34,587 nucleotides of DNA from positions 1 through 34,587 of the forward strand of contig JAAXPZ010000081.1 of NCBI GenBank assembly GCA_012329065.1, given 5' to 3'. How positions within the stretch are numbered: the stretch's first letter is position 1; each line of letters starts with the position of its first letter. A program made the position numbers and the translations under genes. The stretch comes from Sulfurovum sp. (GTDB taxonomy: Bacteria > Campylobacterota > Campylobacteria > Campylobacterales > Sulfurovaceae). The notes below the pieces were generated by a model that did not search any database, was not told the DNA's origin, and worked only from the letters and a program-made list of their open reading frames with translations. This document shows, piece after piece, positions 24,374 to 33,478 of the stretch.

Positions 24374-26839
24374 ATGAATCAACTTCACATTTATCCAACA
24401 TCTAGAGCTCTGAGAACCATAAGTCAAAACTACAAAAACCAAGATGGTTTCTTGCCTACACTCATGCGTATGGACGAGTTTGAACAACGAGCCATACTCC
24501 TTGAGAATAAAATCCATATAGACCCCTTGCAACGTGTCTTACTTTTGCGTCAAGCAGCCTCATTTGATGCTTTTGAAGATTTGAAGTTAGACTTGTCCCT
24601 AGTACGGTTTTTTACCAAGAGTGATGCTTTGTTTAAGTTTTTTGAAGAGTTGGCAGGAGAGGGTGTAGGGTTTGCAACTCTGGCTGAAGCTGACGCGTAT
24701 GCTGAGTTCGGTACGCACTTAGAGATACTGGAGAGATTACTCTCAAACTATCATACTTTACTTGAGGCTAAAGGATTGATAGACAAAGCATTTATCCCGA
24801 ATAGCTACACACTCAACAAAGGTTTTTTAAGTAGCTATGAGAATATAGAGATACATTTGGAAGGGTACTTAAGTCATTTTGAATTGGCACTCTTGGAAGA
24901 AATTTCAAAACAAGTACCACTTACGCTTTATTACAGCACAAGCAAGTTTAATTTGAAAATGCAAGAGCGTTTTGAAACACTAGGTATTAAACTACCTAAG
25001 AACAAACACACACACTTCTCTTTATCGACCAAAGAAGTCTTAGAGGTTACAAACAATGATGACAGCGTAGAGGCACAGGTCTATGCAGTGGAAGAACGCC
25101 AAGAGCAGGTAGCCATTGCATTTAAAGAGATAGAACAAATGGTACGCTCTGGCATAAGTCCAGAGGAGATAGTCCTTATATTGCCTGATGAGAGTTTTAA
25201 AGAACATTTCACCCTTTTTGACACCCACAACAACCTAAACTTCGCCATGGGGTATGACTATAGTAATGGTCGTGTCTATAAATCTTTAGAGGCACTCTGT
25301 AAGTATTGGCAGAGTAGGGATGATAAGAGTAAAAAGTTACTTGAACGATATGGGTTTAATATAGAAGCGTTAGATGCATTGGCTAGTAGTAAAAAAATTA
25401 ATAGTGTAGATTTCTTTACTGTGATAGATGGGCTAGGATTGGCACCGAGGGAGTCAGGTGACAACGATTCATTGTCTTCAACAACAAATCATAATCACCA
25501 GACCCCTCTACCTCCAAGATTGGCACCGAGGGAGTCAGGTGACAATGATTCATTGTCTTCGACAACAAATCATAATCACCAGACCCCTCTACCTCCAAAG
25601 AAAGAGAAGTTCAATGAGCGTGTCTATGAAAAATACCTACACTTTATCAAGGTATTAGAAAATGAAGAGATGGGTTTAACTGAATGGCTTTTCTTGTGGT
25701 TAAAGTCCCTAAGTAAAGTTACCATGGATGATGTGCGTGGTGGTTTGGTTACGGTCATGGGGGTACTAGAAACTAGGGGTGTGAGATTTGAGGGCGTAGT
25801 CATAGTAGACTTCAATGAAGGCGTAGTACCTGCCACATCGAGTAAAGACCAGTTTTTAAACTCACAGGTGCGAGCCTTTGCAAACCTACCCACAAAACAT
25901 GACAGAGAAGCCCTACAAAAGCAGTACTACAAACGCTTACTAGAACAGGCTTCACAGTCTGTGATACTCTATAGTACTTCAGACAGTAAGTTGCCCTCTA
26001 AGTTTCTCTATGAGTTGGGCTTAGGTGAAGCAGTACAGACACAAGCGCAGTTTGACTTGCTGTATAGTCAGGAGTCACAACTTGTGAGTGCTACACCTAT
26101 TGTTGTGGAGTTTGACCCCAAGAGTATTGTTTGGTCAGCGTCTAGGTTAAGAGTGTATTTGGAGTGTAAATATAAGTACTATTATCAATACACCTTAGGT
26201 ATACACGAAAAGCAAAGAGATGAGATGAATGAAGGGCAGTTTTTACATAAGCTTTTAGAGAAGTTGTTTTCTCAAACATCAAGCTATGCCTCAAAAAAAG
26301 AGATGCAAAAAAACATAGATATGCTACTTGATACACTTTATTTAGAAAAAGGCTCAAAAGTAGCATACCAAAAGCTCTTATGGAAAGAGAAGCTAAAAGG
26401 TTTTGTTTCTTCTCAGTTAGAGCACTTTGATACTGGGTGGAAAGTTTTGCATAGGGAAAAAGAGTTTCAAGGTGAGATAGCTGGACTTAGGTTTAAAGGA
26501 CGCATAGACCGCATAGACCAAAATGATACAGATACACTGGTGCTTGACTATAAGTCAGGTAGAGTAGAAAAAGAGCCAAAAACGTTAAATCCAGATAAGA
26601 TAACAGACTTTCAGATGCCCATTTACCAACAACTTCTTTCAGGGAAATACCAAAACATATCTTTGGCATTTTTGAAAATACTTGATAATGGAGAGATGCA
26701 AGAAGTGAAGCACCTAGAAGAGAGAAATACACTCCTAGAAGAACAAATAGCTATACTTAGAAACGCCACATCTTTTACGGTGGAAATGTGTGATGTTTCT
26801 AAGAAGTGTAGGTTTTGTGAAGATGTGTTAATGCTCTAA
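24374..26839 (+). CDS. addB: AddB-type helicase-nuclease subunit (PD-(D/E)XK family)
   Basis: The 821-residue subunit of the RecBCD-like AddAB complex that processes double-strand ends for recombination. The N-terminal half is an inactive helicase-like fold (IYPTSRALRTISQNY at the start). Later come VVIVDFNEGVVPATSS and YYKRLLEQASQSVILYSTSD. The C-terminal nuclease shows FKGRIDRID and DYKSGR (about residues 710-730), and four cysteines, C598 and the CDVSKKCRFC cluster at the C-terminus, fit the 4Fe-4S staple of AddB. Residues about 356-409 are an unusual hydrophilic tandem insertion (see 25439-25600). The start is ATG 24374 with no ribosome site. Confidence 0.85.
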   Translation: MNQLHIYPTSRALRTISQNYKNQDGFLPTLMRMDEFEQRAILLENKIHIDPLQRVLLLRQAASFDAFEDLKLDLSLVRFFTKSDALFKFFEELAGEGVGFATLAEADAYAEFGTHLEILERLLSNYHTLLEAKGLIDKAFIPNSYTLNKGFLSSYENIEIHLEGYLSHFELALLEEISKQVPLTLYYSTSKFNLKMQERFETLGIKLPKNKHTHFSLSTKEVLEVTNNDDSVEAQVYAVEERQEQVAIAFKEIEQMVRSGISPEEIVLILPDESFKEHFTLFDTHNNLNFAMGYDYSNGRVYKSLEALCKYWQSRDDKSKKLLERYGFNIEALDALASSKKINSVDFFTVIDGLGLAPRESGDNDSLSSTTNHNHQTPLPPRLAPRESGDNDSLSSTTNHNHQTPLPPKKEKFNERVYEKYLHFIKVLENEEMGLTEWLFLWLKSLSKVTMDDVRGGLVTVMGVLETRGVRFEGVVIVDFNEGVVPATSSKDQFLNSQVRAFANLPTKHDREALQKQYYKRLLEQASQSVILYSTSDSKLPSKFLYELGLGEAVQTQAQFDLLYSQESQLVSATPIVVEFDPKSIVWSASRLRVYLECKYKYYYQYTLGIHEKQRDEMNEGQFLHKLLEKLFSQTSSYASKKEMQKNIDMLLDTLYLEKGSKVAYQKLLWKEKLKGFVSSQLEHFDTGWKVLHREKEFQGEIAGLRFKGRIDRIDQNDTDTLVLDYKSGRVEKEPKTLNPDKITDFQMPIYQQLLSGKYQNISLAFLKILDNGEMQEVKHLEERNTLLEEQIAILRNATSFTVEMCDVSKKCRFCEDVLML
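25439..25600 (+). repeat. Tandem 81-bp palindromic element inserted in frame in addB
   Basis: Two copies, 25439-25519 and 25520-25600, are nearly identical (few substitutions such as acaacg/acaatg and ttcaac/ttcgac). Each encodes LAPRESGDNDSLSSTTNHNH then QTPLPP. Each copy is a large imperfect palindrome: GAGGGAGTCAGGTGA (25447-25461) pairs with TCACCAGACCCCTC (25495-25508) apart from single mismatches, with a smaller inner hairpin GACAA/TTGTC. The length, 27 codons, keeps the frame. It looks like a mobile palindromic element of the kind seen in Rickettsia coding genes, duplicated once; identity to any named family is not claimed. Confidence 0.7.
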
Positions 26840-26889
26840 GGGTTTGTGTTTGCTTTGGTGTGTGGGAGAGAGGAGTATGTGTGAGGAAC

Positions 26890-26918
26890 TTGACAAATAT
26901 ATAGTTAAACTGTATAAT
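26890..26918 (+). promoter_or_regulatory. Consensus sigma-70 promoter of the toxin-antitoxin operon
   Basis: TTGACA (26890-26895), 17 bp, TATAAT (26913-26918): a perfect match to the consensus in both hexamers and spacing, unlike the other promoters here. The ribosome site AAAGGA is at 26935-26940. Confidence 0.8.
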
Positions 26919-26946: not shown

Positions 26947-27219
26947 ATGACAATTACTGCAACACAACTCAAACAACAAACATATCTGCTTGATTCTGTG
27001 ATAAAAGAGGATATACAAGTCACCAAAAGAGATAGACCTTTTGTTGTAATAGTAGATGCAGTTAGATATGAAAAATTACTCAAAAATCAAAAAGAAGAAA
27101 AAAGAGATACAAAAGCACTTTTAGAAGAGTTTAAAAGGTTAAGTAAAAATGTTTCTAAGATAGATGCAGATATTGATATAATCAAAATGGAAGATGAGAT
27201 GAATAGTGATATTTTTTGA
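26947..27219 (+). CDS. Type II antitoxin, Phd/YefM-like
   Basis: A 90-residue protein: N-terminal DNA-binding part (MTITATQLKQQTYLLDSVI, VTKRDRPFVVIVDAVRYEKLLK, the typical 'xRPxVVIVxxxxYExL' of Phd/YefM and similar antitoxins) and an acidic C-terminal tail that would wrap the toxin (SKIDADIDIIKMEDEM). It overlaps the toxin start by 14 nt. It should repress its own promoter through the palindrome at 26906-26930. Confidence 0.85.
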   Translation: MTITATQLKQQTYLLDSVIKEDIQVTKRDRPFVVIVDAVRYEKLLKNQKEEKRDTKALLEEFKRLSKNVSKIDADIDIIKMEDEMNSDIF

Positions 27220-27607
27220 TACCAATGTTTTGGTGTATGCAACGATAGACCAAGATAAAGAAAAAATGATGCTCTCTCAAAAATTAATAGCACAAGCGAT
27301 AAAGGATGATACATTTTTCATTTCTGCATTGGTATTAAGTGAATATATATTTATACTTTCTAAATTGAAAATCATTCATGAACAAGATGAAAAGCTTATA
27401 TTGTTTTCATCATTATCTCAAGGAAGTCATAATACCGATACTGTTATGGATGGATACAGCCTTTGTAAAAAAATAGATTTCTGTAAAAATATAAATGACA
27501 TGATACATGTAAAAGTAGCAGAAGAATATTGTGAGAAATTAGTTACGTTTGATAGTGACTTTAAGAAGTTGCAAAAATATACAGAACTTGAGATAGAAAT
27601 ATTATAG
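27206..27607 (+). CDS. PIN-domain ribonuclease toxin, VapC type
   Basis: A 133-residue PIN domain starting with GTG at 27206 inside the antitoxin gene. The acidic metal-binding residues are visible: D5 in MIFFDTNVLVYA, E about 46 in SEYIFILS, and an Asp near 115 in LVTFDSDFKKL, with NINDMIHVKVAEEY supplying a further acidic residue. VapC toxins cleave tRNA or rRNA sites when the antitoxin is degraded. The gene looks intact. It is the first unit downstream of addB in the AT-rich stretch. Confidence 0.85.
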   Translation: MIFFDTNVLVYATIDQDKEKMMLSQKLIAQAIKDDTFFISALVLSEYIFILSKLKIIHEQDEKLILFSSLSQGSHNTDTVMDGYSLCKKIDFCKNINDMIHVKVAEEYCEKLVTFDSDFKKLQKYTELEIEIL

Positions 27608-27669: not shown

Positions 27670-27906
27670 ATGAGCAATCTACTTAAACGCATAACCATTG
27701 ACTCCGAAATATCTCATGGAAAGCCATGCATTAGAGGACTTCGTTACCCTGTAGAGATGATACTTCAGTTGCTTAGTAGTGATATGACAACCGAAGAGAT
27801 ACTTGAAGACTATAGTGACTTAGAAAAGGACGATATATTGGCATCGTTGCTGTATGCCTCAAAATTAACTGAGGTGAAGTCTACGCATAAACTAGATGCG
27901 GCCTAA
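27670..27906 (+). CDS. DUF433 antitoxin
   Basis: A 78-residue winged-helix-like protein with the family block KRITIDSEISHGKPCIRGLRYPVEMILQLL and a helical C-terminus (TTEEILEDYSDLEKDDILASLLYASKL). DUF433 proteins are usually the antitoxin of a DUF5615 (PIN-like) toxin encoded directly downstream. Here the downstream toxin is only a stub (27906-27974), so the antitoxin appears orphaned. The stop overlaps the next ATG (TAATG). Confidence 0.85.
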   Translation: MSNLLKRITIDSEISHGKPCIRGLRYPVEMILQLLSSDMTTEEILEDYSDLEKDDILASLLYASKLTEVKSTHKLDAA

Positions 27907-27974
27907 TGAAGTTTATTTTAGATGCACAGTTGCCTAAGAAGTTATCTGACTTTCTGGTATGGAAAGGGTATTAG
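27906..27974 (+). pseudogene. Truncated DUF5615-type toxin
   Basis: MKFILDAQLPKKLSDFLVWKGY then TAG after 22 codons. MKFxLDAQLPxxLxxFL is the characteristic N-terminus of DUF5615 PIN-like toxins (with D6 the first metal ligand), which are normally about 110 residues. Nothing after the stop continues the family, so the rest was deleted, not just frameshifted. The start keeps the native TAATG coupling to the antitoxin. Confidence 0.7.
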
Positions 27975-28065: not shown

Positions 28066-29103
28066 ATGGTGATGTCAGAAGTTTTACTACTAGAAAAAAC
28101 CAACGCTAATACATTAGATAATGAGTTAAAAAGTAGACTACTGAGCAAGAACCTTTATTATGAAATTATAGAAAGTGAAACATTTAAACGACTAAAAAAT
28201 ATCCATTTTTTAGGGGCTATTGACTATCTCTATAAAAATAAAAAAAGACATACACGATATGAGCATACTCTATCAGTAGCAAGACTAGCAGTAAGATATT
28301 CTGAATTAACAAAATTAAAATATGATGAAGAAAAATATTTAGTTGTTGCTGCACTTCTTCATGATATAGGACATGGTCCTTTATCGCATAGTATGGAGCC
28401 ATCGTTTAAAAAATTATTTAAACTTACACACCACAGTGCAGGCACAAATATAATTTTAGGAAAATCTCCCTTAGGTAGTGAGATATTTTCTATTTTAAAT
28501 AAATATAATATTGAACTAGATAAATTAATTAAACTATTAGATGGTAAAAGTAATGAAAAGTATGCTTTTGCACTAAATAACCCAATAAATATTGACACAA
28601 TAGATGGAATAGTAAGAAGTTATACATATCTTTTTTCTGCAAGAAATAAAAATAAAAATATGTCTACTATACCAAATATATATGATATTTTAGAAGCAAC
28701 AGTAAGAGTTGAAAAACAAAAATACCTTGATATTTTTTGGGAACTAAAAAATAAAGTTTATAATGAATTAATTAATAAAGAAATACATATATATGCAGAC
28801 AATTATAGTCAAAGGTTTGTCTTAAATAAAGAACAAGATATAAAAGAAGAAGATTTTTATTTATCGGAAATTGAATTTAAAAATAAATTTGATTCTCTTT
28901 TTGTAGATTTGAAAAACTTGTCAAAAATAAAAGAAAAAGAGACATCTCTCAATCTTGAATATATGAATCGACTATATAAAATAAGTTCTAGTAAATCTGT
29001 TTCAAATATAGCAGAGTATGCGACTAAATATATTTATACGAAGGAAAAAGATATATTTACTATAAAGCAAAGTATAGAAAAGACACAAAAAACTTTAATA
29101 TAG
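28066..29103 (+). CDS. HD-domain phosphohydrolase (SAMHD1/dGTPase-like)
   Basis: A 345-residue soluble protein with a complete HD domain: H67 in HTRYEHTLSVARLA, H99-D100 in ALLHDIGHGPLSH, H109, HH in LTHHSAGTN, and the final Asp in NINIDTIDGIVRS (about residue 175). The arrangement is that of COG1078 HD phosphohydrolases related to dGTPase and SAMHD1, which hydrolyse deoxynucleoside triphosphates. The C-terminal 150 residues are helical and of unknown role. ATG 28066 follows AGAAGGA. It is the first of three very AT-rich genes. Substrate is inferred only from the family. Confidence 0.8.
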   Translation: MVMSEVLLLEKTNANTLDNELKSRLLSKNLYYEIIESETFKRLKNIHFLGAIDYLYKNKKRHTRYEHTLSVARLAVRYSELTKLKYDEEKYLVVAALLHDIGHGPLSHSMEPSFKKLFKLTHHSAGTNIILGKSPLGSEIFSILNKYNIELDKLIKLLDGKSNEKYAFALNNPINIDTIDGIVRSYTYLFSARNKNKNMSTIPNIYDILEATVRVEKQKYLDIFWELKNKVYNELINKEIHIYADNYSQRFVLNKEQDIKEEDFYLSEIEFKNKFDSLFVDLKNLSKIKEKETSLNLEYMNRLYKISSSKSVSNIAEYATKYIYTKEKDIFTIKQSIEKTQKTLI

Positions 29104-29116
29104 GGCAGAGCATAAA

Positions 29117-30115
29117 ATGTATGAAAACTTTCAATCAATTAAAAAAGCAAAAGAGTATTCAGAAGATACGATTAAAAAATTAAGTAATGATTTTAAATCA
29201 AGGCTGAAGATTGATTCTGTAAAGTTTACGATTGTCACAACTGGGTCTTTTGCAAGATGTGAGGCATCAGAAGCATCAGATTTAGATTGTTTTATTATTA
29301 TTGATAATTTCGACAAGGAAGATAATAACTTTAATCAAAATGATGAGAAAATAAATACTAAAGAACTCTTGAGTAAAGCGATGAATGAAATTGTGTCAAG
29401 ATATATTAAAAAAGATGCTGGAAGTACTGGAACCTTTGGAATTGATGCTGTGGTAAAAATCGATGACTTATTAACAAACATGGGTGGTCAAAATGATGAC
29501 AATATCCAATTTAGCCGTAGGATGCTTTTCTTGTTGGAAGGTAAAAGTTTGTTTAATGATGCACTTTTTCAAACATTTAGAAGAAATCTCATTGAAAAAT
29601 ATATTAAAGAAACTGTATCAGACCATCAGTTAAGTAGGTTTTTTCTCAATGATATTATTCGTTTTTATAGAATGATGGCTACAGACTTTGAGTATAAAGT
29701 TTCAGAGGATGGAAAGTCATGGGGCGTGAGAAATATTAAATTAACATTTTCAAGAAAATTACTTTACTTTGGTGGAGTGCTTACTGTGGCTGAAACGGCA
29801 CAAAAAACAAGAGAAACAAAAATTAAGGAGACATTACTTTTGTTAGATATGTCTCCTTTGGAAAGAATAAATCATTTAGCAGTATCAGGCTCTGAAAAAG
29901 TTTTTAAATCATATGATTATTTTTTGGAAAAATTGTCCGATTCGGATATTCGAAAAGAATTAGATAAGGCAAAAGTTGAACAAATGCCAATAGATAATCC
30001 TGAAATATTTAGAGAAATGAAAAATGAAAGTAAACATTTTTCTTGGGCTTTATCTTCAGTATTAAAAAATACATATGATGATACCCATCCTATTCACCAT
30101 GCACTTATCTTTTAA
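29117..30115 (+). CDS. Nucleotidyltransferase (polymerase-beta fold), 332 aa
   Basis: The catalytic signature of the superfamily is present: GS (G43, S44) in TTGSFARCEASEASDLDCFI with D55 and D57, and a third carboxylate at D110 or D116 in FGIDAVVKIDD. After this comes a long helical part (about 150-332) with RRMLFLLEG, FFLNDIIRFYRMMATDFEYK and WGVRNIKLTFSRKLLYFGGV. It is larger than MNT antitoxins and is not a CD-NTase I recognise; no PAP/OAS signature is clear. The product (nucleotide transfer to a protein, tRNA or small molecule) is unknown. It lies 13 nt after the HD gene and its stop overlaps the next ATG. Confidence 0.75.
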   Translation: MYENFQSIKKAKEYSEDTIKKLSNDFKSRLKIDSVKFTIVTTGSFARCEASEASDLDCFIIIDNFDKEDNNFNQNDEKINTKELLSKAMNEIVSRYIKKDAGSTGTFGIDAVVKIDDLLTNMGGQNDDNIQFSRRMLFLLEGKSLFNDALFQTFRRNLIEKYIKETVSDHQLSRFFLNDIIRFYRMMATDFEYKVSEDGKSWGVRNIKLTFSRKLLYFGGVLTVAETAQKTRETKIKETLLLLDMSPLERINHLAVSGSEKVFKSYDYFLEKLSDSDIRKELDKAKVEQMPIDNPEIFREMKNESKHFSWALSSVLKNTYDDTHPIHHALIF

Positions 30116-30750
30116 TGTTGAATAAATTCTTTTTTCTTAGGCATGGGATAACCAACTTTAATAAAGCTAAAAGATATACAGGACATGAAGATATAGCATT
30201 ATCTTCTTCTGCTTATGAAGAAATTAAAAATACATTACCTTTACTAAACAATAGAAATATTTCAATAATCTACTCTAGCCCTTTATTGAGAGCTAGACAA
30301 ACAGCACATATTATTGCAAATTATTTAAGTGTTCCAATTGTAATAGTTGATGAATTTAAAGAAAGAAGTTTTGGTCTATTTGAAGGAAAAAGGAAATTAC
30401 AATATATAAAAAAATGTTTTCCTGAAGGACAGACATTATATAGCTACAGAAAACAAGTTTTAAAAGGATTAAGGAGTATTAAAATAGAAAATGATTCTTT
30501 AATTATTGCTCATTCTGGTACCTATAAAGTGTTGATGAAATATTATTATAGAATTAGTCCTAAGTATAGTGTGAAAAATAATGAATTAATATATTTTGAC
30601 TTGAAAGAAAAACATCCTACTGCAATAAACGATACAGAGTATCTTAAATCATCAAAGTGCAATGCAAAAAGATTAGATGAAGCCATAGTTGAGATTGAGA
30701 ATATGATGTTTAATGGGTTAGATAGTGATAATAAATACAATGAACAATAA
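30115..30750 (+). CDS. Histidine phosphatase family protein
   Basis: A 211-residue member of the phosphoglycerate-mutase-like superfamily: RHG (R9, H10, G11, phosphohistidine site), SSPLLRARQTAHIIA, E83 in FKERSFGLFEG and the second catalytic H133 in IAHSGTYKV. This is the layout of a two-His phosphatase acting on small phosphorylated metabolites or proteins. It shares one base with the nucleotidyltransferase stop (TAATG) and its 3' end overlaps the addA start, so addA may be translated by coupling to it. Substrate unknown. Confidence 0.85.
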   Translation: MLNKFFFLRHGITNFNKAKRYTGHEDIALSSSAYEEIKNTLPLLNNRNISIIYSSPLLRARQTAHIIANYLSVPIVIVDEFKERSFGLFEGKRKLQYIKKCFPEGQTLYSYRKQVLKGLRSIKIENDSLIIAHSGTYKVLMKYYYRISPKYSVKNNELIYFDLKEKHPTAINDTEYLKSSKCNAKRLDEAIVEIENMMFNGLDSDNKYNEQ

Positions 30751-33478
30751 CCCAAACTTCAAACCTCACCTAGCCTATTCAGCCTCAGCAGGAAGTGGAA
30801 AAACTTTTGCCTTGTCAGTTCGCTACATCTCGCTTCTATTTATGGGAGAGTCGCCATCAAGCATACTTGCAGCTACCTTTACTAACAAAGCAGCAGCAGA
30901 GATGCGGCAGAGGGTGGTGGATTCTCTTCGTAATCTTGGGGATAATGAAGCATTTTTAGGTGCTGTATTGGAGCAGACTGGGTTTTCTGAGGAGGAAATA
31001 TTTAAAAAACAGCCAGAGGTGTTGGCTAGGTTTTTGTCCCATAGTTCTTATATAGTGACACTTGACAGTTTCTTTTCTGGTATCTTGCGTTCTGCTTCGC
31101 TCGAACTTGGGCTAGAGCCAGACTTTGTGACAAAGACTGAAGGGGACGATGAGCTGGAGAAACACTTTTTAGATGAAGTGCAGGCAAACAGTTTACTTGC
31201 TAATCTGGTAAAATTGGCTATAGATATAGAAGACAAACGCTTTGGGAAGATATTTGACCTGATGCAGAACTTTTACAAGGTTGACCCTTTACTACCAAAG
31301 AAAAAAGAGAGTAACTTAGTCTTAGCTAAGCAAGAAGAAGCGTGTGAAGTGCTAAGACTCAAGATGATAAAGGCACTCACAGATGCTGGGGCAGCAGTAC
31401 GGTGTATGAAGCAGTTTGAGACGAAGAGTACTAAAGAACTTTTTACTAAAGGACTATTTGAAAAAGAGACTATAGTGGAACATTCTTGGTATAAGAAAGT
31501 GGCTAATGATGAGATAGAGGGACTCTATGCGTTCCTTAAAATTGAACTAGGTAAATGGGCAGAGGCTAGAGAATCCATAGTTTTGCATAATCTTTTTACT
31601 ATTTATGACTACTACAAAAATGCCAACATTACTAATGCTAAGAGTTCGGGTGTGCTGAGCTTTGATGACTTGACTTATTTTACCTATAGGTTACTGCATG
31701 AGAGCATCTCGAAAGAGTTTTTGTATTTTAAGATAGATGCGAAGTTTAAACATATACTGCTTGATGAGCTTCAAGATACCTCTACCTTGCAGTTTTTACT
31801 TCTCAAACCTCTCATAGATGAAATCTTTGCAGGGCAAGGGCAGAGTGAGTTTAAGTCGTTTTTTTATGTAGGGGATACCAAGCAGTCACTCTACCGTTTT
31901 CGTGGTGGAGTAGAAGAGCTTTTTGATAAGGTGGCAGAAAACTATGGGGTAGAAGTACTTCCTATGGATACCAACTACCGAAGCTCCAAGTCTGTGGTAG
32001 AGCAGGTCAATAGATGGTTTGAGCCTACCATGAAAGGCTATATTCCTCAGAAAAATAAAGCAGGGGCGAGTGAGGGCTATGTGGAAGTGCTAGAGTCTGA
32101 AGAACTCATAGACGAAGCAGTCAAGCAAAGCAAGAAGCTTTTGGAGCTAGGAGTCAATGTAGATGACATAGCTTTTCTAGTAAGTACAAACAAAGATGGA
32201 CAGACCTTACAAGAGGCTTGTCAACAGGAGGGCATTGATACGCTACTCAAAACATCTAGCTCATTAAAGAATATACCAAAAATTGCTGCATTGGTGGCAA
32301 TGACAGAGTACCTTTTCTTTGGCGAGAAGATAGATGCACAGGCGATGCTTTTAAAGGTGGGTAAAACCTTAGAGGAGATTGATGCCTCATGGTTCTCGGC
32401 GTTTATGTCTCCTCTGCAAGTGCTAGATAGGTTGGTGCGTGAGTTTGGGTATTTTGATGAGGACTTGAATGTATTGAAGCTTTTAGAGTTTGCTTCTAGC
32501 TATAACGACATACCTACTTTTGTAGAGGAGTTTAGTACTTCCAGCATTGCTGTGGCATCCAATACAATTCACGGTGCGAAGATAATGACTATACATGGCT
32601 CTAAGGGTTTGGAGTTTGAGTATGTGATACTACTAGACAAACTCACGCGTAAAAACTCTGATAAATCAGCACTACTCTACCACTATAATGAACAGCTACA
32701 TATAGACAAGATACTCTACCGTACCAAAGGAAGAGAGAACTTTGACGTTGAGTATGCTAAGATAGTAGAAGAGCGTAAGACCTCTGCAGAAAAAGACAGC
32801 ATGAATGTACTCTATGTAGCACTCACGCGTGCAGTAGAGGGGATGATAATCATACGAAAGCCTAAAGATTCTATATTTGATGCTCTTGTAATGACCCTAG
32901 TGAGATTGGGAGCATTGAGAATCAGGAATGAGGAGTTAGGAATGAGGAATGATGGTGGGCAGATGGAGTCTGCTATTGTACTATCTAATTATGGGACACA
33001 AGAAACACCTGAAAAGTCTGAAGAAGAAGAAAAAGATTACGAAGCCATACTTTTTGGTACGGCTTTGCACTATACATTAGAAATGCTAGGCTCTTTTGAT
33101 GAGATGAGTTTAAATCTCGCCATGATGTCTATGAAAAATAAATACGGACAAGAGCTTAGTGATGAAAGCATAAACGAAATAGAAAGTCGTGTAAGACTGC
33201 TCATAAAAAATGAGGAATTTCAAACTTTACTACAAAATGCACAAGTACGAAAAGAACAGTCCATCTCTTATGAGGGAGAACTAAAGCAGATAGACTTGCT
33301 CTTAGAGTATGAGGACTATAATCTAGTTATTGACTATAAGAGTTCTAAGAAGTATAGTTTGAAGCATCAGAGTCAGGTGGGGTATTATAAGAAAGCTATT
33401 GGGAATATAACGGGGAATAAGACTGAGGGGATGATTATTTACCTCTTAGATGGTACAATTAAGATAGAAAAAATATAA
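30740..33478 (+). CDS. addA: AddA-type helicase-nuclease (UvrD superfamily)
   Basis: A protein of about 912 residues, the ATP-driven helicase and nuclease partner of AddB in double-strand-end resection. ATG 30740 is preferred; GTG 30725 is possible. Motifs in order: Walker A SASAGSGKTFAL, Q-like TFTNKAAAEMRQRV, Walker B region LLDELQDTSTLQF, GDTKQSLYRFRGG, NYRSSKSVVEQVN, TIHGSKGLEFEYVILL and VLYVALTRAVEGM. The C-terminal PD-(D/E)XK nuclease has FGTALHYTLEML and LVIDYKSSKKYSLKHQSQ. Between helicase and nuclease is a short repetitive insertion (32918-32955). It is separated from addB by about 3.9 kb of accessory genes. No ribosome site is evident. Confidence 0.88.
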   Translation: MNNNPNFKPHLAYSASAGSGKTFALSVRYISLLFMGESPSSILAATFTNKAAAEMRQRVVDSLRNLGDNEAFLGAVLEQTGFSEEEIFKKQPEVLARFLSHSSYIVTLDSFFSGILRSASLELGLEPDFVTKTEGDDELEKHFLDEVQANSLLANLVKLAIDIEDKRFGKIFDLMQNFYKVDPLLPKKKESNLVLAKQEEACEVLRLKMIKALTDAGAAVRCMKQFETKSTKELFTKGLFEKETIVEHSWYKKVANDEIEGLYAFLKIELGKWAEARESIVLHNLFTIYDYYKNANITNAKSSGVLSFDDLTYFTYRLLHESISKEFLYFKIDAKFKHILLDELQDTSTLQFLLLKPLIDEIFAGQGQSEFKSFFYVGDTKQSLYRFRGGVEELFDKVAENYGVEVLPMDTNYRSSKSVVEQVNRWFEPTMKGYIPQKNKAGASEGYVEVLESEELIDEAVKQSKKLLELGVNVDDIAFLVSTNKDGQTLQEACQQEGIDTLLKTSSSLKNIPKIAALVAMTEYLFFGEKIDAQAMLLKVGKTLEEIDASWFSAFMSPLQVLDRLVREFGYFDEDLNVLKLLEFASSYNDIPTFVEEFSTSSIAVASNTIHGAKIMTIHGSKGLEFEYVILLDKLTRKNSDKSALLYHYNEQLHIDKILYRTKGRENFDVEYAKIVEERKTSAEKDSMNVLYVALTRAVEGMIIIRKPKDSIFDALVMTLVRLGALRIRNEELGMRNDGGQMESAIVLSNYGTQETPEKSEEEEKDYEAILFGTALHYTLEMLGSFDEMSLNLAMMSMKNKYGQELSDESINEIESRVRLLIKNEEFQTLLQNAQVRKEQSISYEGELKQIDLLLEYEDYNLVIDYKSSKKYSLKHQSQVGYYKKAIGNITGNKTEGMIIYLLDGTIKIEKI
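32918..32955 (+). repeat. Short tandem repeat insertion in addA
   Basis: AGGAATGAGGA occurs at 32924-32934 and again at 32938-32948 with period 14, followed by AATGATGG. It encodes RIRNEELGMRNDGGQ in the linker between the helicase and nuclease parts. It resembles low-complexity GAGGAGTTAGGAATGAGG spacers; similar strings act as ribosome sites before aroK (TAGGAGTTAGGGG), carA (AATTAGGAGAG) and ddl (GATTAGGGAAG). Confidence 0.5.

Follow-up and report, generated by a model that had tools for sequence, protein, structure and literature searches.

An HD hydrolase gene directly followed by a nucleotidyltransferase (NTase) gene, in some loci with a histidine phosphatase gene as a third member, is spread over dozens of unrelated bacteria, and a complete trio of this kind occupies positions 28,066 to 30,750 of the window (the whole 34,587-nt stretch of Sulfurovum sp. 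DNA that was analysed). We give an even chance to the reading that the three genes form an accessory conflict module spread by horizontal transfer, with defence against phages as its most likely role, in which an HD effector is restrained by the NTase. The original prediction had proposed a possible defence or signalling system made of all three genes. Its linkage and its defence-type neighbours held up on wider comparison and the NTase is already listed as a defence candidate, but the phosphatase proved optional and the design is less unprecedented than had been supposed.

All three open reading frames were found on the forward strand where they had been placed, with a gap of 13 nt and an overlap of 1 nt (TAATG) between them. 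The first (28066..29103; 345 aa) encodes an HD hydrolase of the SAMHD1/EF1143 class, the predicted dNTPase effector (Pfam HD, PDB sequence matches, AlphaFold/Foldseek); the second (29117..30115; 332 aa) an NTase of the PDC-M70A family with a predicted DrrA/GlnE-like fold (PF01909, PADLOC, AlphaFold/Foldseek); and the third (30115..30750; 211 aa) a branch-1 histidine phosphatase (PF00300). The predicted AT-richness and adjacent toxin-antitoxin loci were also recovered. GC content drops to about 0.25 across the HD gene and the first part of the NTase gene, from about 0.40 around the insert, and directly upstream on the same strand lie a Phd-like antitoxin and PIN (VapC-like) toxin pair (26947..27607; weak PhdYeFM and strong PIN matches) and a DUF433 gene (PF04255, 78 bits) trailed by a short remnant (together 27670..27974). 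The Phd/PIN pair, the DUF433 gene and the trio make up an insert of about 3.8 kb at the junction between an addB-like gene (24374..26839, forward; PDDEXK_1 and AddB models) and an addA-like RecB helicase gene (30740..33478, forward; PRK13909 RecB-like helicase, 1032 bits), the likely ATG of which (30740) overlaps the phosphatase stop. In nine relatives addB and addA adjoin or nearly adjoin with no insert, and this empty site supports the conflict-module reading. A MazEF-like pair lies between the two genes in a same-genus genome (L117, 690-1224), indicating that toxin-antitoxin genes of unrelated kinds entered this junction on more than one occasion.

Scanning genomes with one NTase sequence alone gave no match and a family alignment was required; the resulting family-level scan of 84,980 genomes returned 168 relatives of the NTase, and we examined the best 80 of them. 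A tree of 87 NTases, comprising these 80, the window's own and loci from other searches, places the window in a clade of 72, mostly from Alpha- and Gammaproteobacteria. An HD homologue adjoins the NTase gene in 69 of these 72 loci, preceding it at a median spacing of −4 nt (a 4-nt overlap). Of the three exceptions, L010 and L081 start at the end of a contig and L076 lacks a detectable HD gene. This adjacency is not due to chance. At three Pseudomonas loci the two genes are fused into one encoded HD-NTase protein in which the HD residues and the NTase GS and SDxD motifs are present; in one of them (L048) D or A appears where the HE glutamate is expected. Moreover, the HD family appears to serve this operon exclusively: in a six-frame search of 64 genomes the operon copy was the only strong match, the six other HD matches being weak (best 4e-20). 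The mostly overlapping or nearly overlapping genes, the natural fusions and this exclusive use all speak for the conflict-module reading. The phosphatase gene, in contrast, lies directly downstream of the NTase gene in only 24 of the 72 clade loci (again from the best 80 of 168 relatives and others), in separate parts of the tree. Co-occurrence across genomes is thus strong for the HD-NTase pair, while the phosphatase is an optional third gene that most HD-NTase loci do without.

The distribution is sporadic, which also fits an accessory element. Among 149 relatives searched, only the window's own genome carries its NTase, and of 397 genomes from the phylum, 3 have a member of the PDC-M70A family. 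An intact HD and NTase gene pair is the only evident cargo of the 4.5-kb E. coli plasmid pISHS7_5, on which just a Rop gene is annotated besides, and DNA of this plasmid is present in one of 5426 complete E. coli genomes. No NTase homologues were found in viral contigs or phage records, and the phage HD matches were partial and distant only.

We matched the genes one or two positions away from HD-NTase loci to PADLOC at a threshold of 1e-8. The 117 upstream neighbours match 109 PADLOC families and the 108 downstream neighbours match 166, including Pycsar cyclase, PD-Lambda-5, SoFic, AbiEi/ii, gop-beta-cll, CBASS E2, MADS and type I/II restriction-modification, whereas a control set of 100 genes, taken at arbitrary positions from 20 of these genomes, matches only 6; redundant PADLOC models inflate the neighbour counts, so the difference should be read qualitatively. 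Among the upstream neighbours no single metabolic family recurs. The association with defence genes that had been anticipated for these loci is therefore present, and no fixed metabolic pathway accompanies them. These results bear on whether the genes might instead form an ordinary metabolic or nucleotide-salvage operon, or an RNA end-processing set, that happens to be carried on islands. All three enzyme classes are known from housekeeping metabolism, and a distant Rhizobium NTase-phosphatase pair sits among glycosyltransferases and transporters. Nevertheless, the absence of a constant pathway partner upstream, the defence-type neighbours, the sporadic distribution and the HD-NTase pair as sole evident cargo of a small plasmid make such an operon very unlikely.

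The HD protein matches Pfam HD (PF01966) at 42 bits, above the Pfam cut-off, and its sequence matches in the PDB are 2hek, EF1143 and SAMHD1. Its AlphaFold model (pLDDT 90.6) was matched best by Foldseek to EF1143 with bound dNTPs and to SAMHD1. Residues H67, H99, D100, H108, E111 and D177 are invariant across 39 sequences; H108 and E111 form the HE dyad and D177 is the fourth metal ligand. Catalytic residues are intact in all three proteins, as had been proposed, although the HD histidine read earlier as H109 is really H108, while H67, H99 and D100 were assigned correctly. The window protein thus has the fold and the HD/HE catalytic set of EF1143 and SAMHD1, but it is only 16-19% identical to them, is shorter and has a fixed NTase partner. 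Depletion of dNTPs by this protein would fit its predicted fold, and both the fold and the HE dyad count in favour of an effector that acts as a dNTPase.

The NTase matches NTP_transf_2 (PF01909) at 32 bits, above the Pfam cut-off, and the PADLOC model PDC-M70A (PDLC04778) at 162 bits (6e-48), a membership that adds to the case for a conflict module. Its GS (43-44) and DxD (55-57) motifs, noted originally, are invariant across homologues, the latter as SDxD; a conserved third acidic residue was looked for in the NTase and not found. The AlphaFold model (pLDDT 91) has as its best Foldseek matches DrrA and both adenylyltransferase domains of GlnE, each at probability 1.00 and over 345-375 alignment columns that cover most of the protein, but the TM-scores are only 0.41-0.46, identities are 11-15%, the E-values are modest, and any protein target is putative here. 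Next come aminoglycoside NTases and MNT antitoxins, and HalB is a weak match. The fold comparison suggested earlier, which named CD-NTase, MNT and GlnD-type folds, came out with DrrA and GlnE best, MNT antitoxins weaker and CD-NTases only at noise level.

Two known groups were considered for the NTase and rejected. A CBASS CD-NTase identity fails because CD-NTases appear only at E ~2 in Foldseek and no CD-NTase model is among the PADLOC matches. The type VII toxin-antitoxin system MntA-HepT likewise places an NTase beside an enzyme that it may control, and MNT antitoxins are weak fold matches, but the window NTase is a protein of 332 aa with a helical C-terminal half, it scores 12.9 bits on the MntA model against a cut-off of 60, and its partner is an HD protein and not HEPN.

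The closest characterised system is Clover, described in a preprint, in which the dTTP-activated dGTPase CloA is restrained by p3diT from the NTase CloB; inactivation of CloB is toxic, and fully dephosphorylated p3diT does not inhibit CloA (PMC12265719). Clover is likewise a two-gene dNTPase-NTase operon among defence genes. Its CloA catalytic residues H117/D118 and H126/E129 (PMC12265719) have the same spacing as H99/D100 and H108/E111 of the window HD protein. Methylobacterium symbioticum, an example in the same preprint, has two Dgt-class dGTPase-NTase operons (L138 and L142) with the same dNTPase-then-NTase order, and the dGTPase of L142 matches Salmonella CloA structures at 1.7e-126. This genome also carries an HD-NTase pair (L028), so both systems occur side by side. 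The subunits are nevertheless of different families. CloA is of the Dgt class (473-aa construct), whereas the window HD protein is not: it has no match at E<=1 to the Salmonella CloA structures 9p8s-9p8v, scores 29.3 bits on TIGR01353 against a cut-off of 152, and matches a genuine CloA homologue only at the HD motif (24.6 bits). CloB as inferred (about 270 aa) has no recognisable homology to the window NTase; BLASTP and hhalign of the latter against the NTase beside an M. symbioticum CloA homologue, which we called CloB from its position and which is not the Salmonella CloB, gave a probability of 1.4 with only SDxD aligned. Identity of the trio with Clover was therefore rejected on both subunits, homology being limited to active-site motifs. 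Further, no phosphatase is mentioned for Clover (PMC12265719), whereas the window trio has one. In the literature searched for a PDC-M70 or HD-NTase-phosphatase defence system only Clover was found; the Clover preprint cites Nicastro et al. 2023 for a dNTPase-NTase pair, and that study may mention the present one. The trio had been taken for an unnamed system; its subunits do differ from those of Clover, but a similar design has now been described and the NTase was already known as PDC-M70A.

By its subunit families, then, the trio is not Clover, yet it may work like Clover, and the precedent of an NTase that restrains a dNTPase supports the conflict-module reading. A more specific form of that reading would follow Clover strictly, with a diffusible nucleotide from the NTase inhibiting the HD dNTPase and the phosphatase dephosphorylating this signal to free the effector. 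The inhibition of CloA by p3diT and the loss of inhibition on full dephosphorylation provide a direct functional precedent for it, and the signal-making NTase HalB is a weak fold match. We regard it as unlikely, given that the NTase lacks recognisable homology to the inferred CloB, that its best fold matches are protein adenylylators with CD-NTases at noise level, and that most loci have no phosphatase. In its predicted fold the NTase stands closer to enzymes that adenylylate proteins than to NTases that make signals, so the analogy with Clover may fail in detail.

Outside the clade of 72, NTases of the wider family have other partners. At 11 loci of the 87-member tree distant NTases pair with the PDC-M70B protein, which we take to be a TIM barrel from its 'sugar phosphate isomerase/epimerase' annotation, and for which no Pfam match was found; NTases with this partner occupy a part of the tree of their own. 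At two further loci the partner is a 2H phosphoesterase of the AKAP7/2'-5' RNA ligase type, and at one (L008) a histidine phosphatase alone, without HD. The window NTase belongs to the A family of PDC-M70, but the B partner is absent among the window genes tested, its place being taken by the HD protein and the phosphatase. The NTase thus already figures in PADLOC as a defence candidate, paired there with another protein, and PDC-M70A is only a candidate itself.

Since the wider family uses other hydrolases without an HD gene, the HD protein need not be the effector. The main rival to our reading turns the roles around: the NTase would be a toxin that nucleotidylates a host or phage target, and the HD protein, with the phosphatase where present, would be an erasing antitoxin. 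DarG, which removes the modification made by DarT, is the model for such antitoxins. Protein adenylylators are the nearest folds of the NTase, the varied candidate phosphoester-acting partners of related NTases (PDC-M70B, 2H phosphoesterase, histidine phosphatase) would suit erasers of a common product, and the HD-first gene order resembles that of operons with the antitoxin first. However, the HD protein keeps a complete dNTPase HD/HE machinery and fold, beyond what an eraser needs, and in Clover the dNTPase is toxic and the NTase protects. We consider this inverted arrangement rather unlikely.

Under the preferred reading, in which the HD protein is the effector, it would be a dNTP triphosphohydrolase of the SAMHD1/EF1143 class, able to deprive both a replicating phage and the host cell of dNTPs. 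Its co-translated NTase would keep it inactive, through a nucleotide that is either attached covalently to the HD protein or produced as a small molecule to which the HD protein binds; the DrrA/GlnE fold favours covalent nucleotidylation, and the Clover and Hailong precedents favour a soluble nucleotide. The phosphatase, where present, might return the switch to its starting state by lifting this restraint or trimming the signal. By sequence it is an ordinary branch-1 histidine phosphatase (His_Phos_1, PF00300, 94 bits, above the Pfam cut-off), with R9, H10, E83 and H133 invariant across homologues, as predicted, and R59 likewise; by analogy, the inactivation of p3diT through removal of its 5' phosphates makes a phosphatase eraser plausible. 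With somewhat less than even confidence, we suggest that the operon is a second, independently evolved form of NTase-controlled dNTPase immunity, with a SAMHD1-class effector, a GlnE/DrrA-type adenylylator and a phosphatase eraser, and that it is one branch of a modular NTase family, the others having TIM-barrel or 2H phosphoesterase partners. If so, dNTP depletion under NTase restraint would have arisen in bacteria at least two times from different components, in this case with an effector of the class to which human SAMHD1, an antiviral factor, belongs, and how immune dNTPases stay harmless before infection would become testable. Phage, toxicity and product assays could readily use the pair on the E. 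coli plasmid and the natural fusions.

Several smaller features were seen at these loci. Two genomes of the same taxonomic order as the window's, L003 and L004, have a distant PDC-M70A NTase directly followed by the AKAP7/2'-5' RNA ligase-related 2H phosphoesterase, and one of them adjoins an integrase-like gene. The divergent NTase-histidine phosphatase pair of L008 (7854-9549) lies on a Rhizobium plasmid within a glycosyltransferase/MFS transporter cluster. No Rfam families were found within the window. A perfect sigma-70 promoter match (12/12, TTGACA-17-TATAAT) lies at 26890-26918, where the insert has its left end, ahead of the Phd/PIN pair and pointing towards the trio. The remnant after the DUF433 gene is 22 codons long (MKFILDAQLPKKLSDFLVWKGY*) and is presumably DUF5615-like, DUF5615 being the partner of DUF433; as only a remnant of that partner is left, the DUF433 toxin-antitoxin pair appears broken. 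The addB-like gene contains an 81-bp in-frame tandem duplication (25437-25598; two copies, 97% matches) and ends at an early stop (TAA, 26837-26839), after which the same frame reads GFVFALVCGREEYV* (window 26800-26893). This stretch past the stop resembles the conserved C-terminus of relatives, and the early stop costs the protein the last cysteine of a C..CxxC..C cluster.
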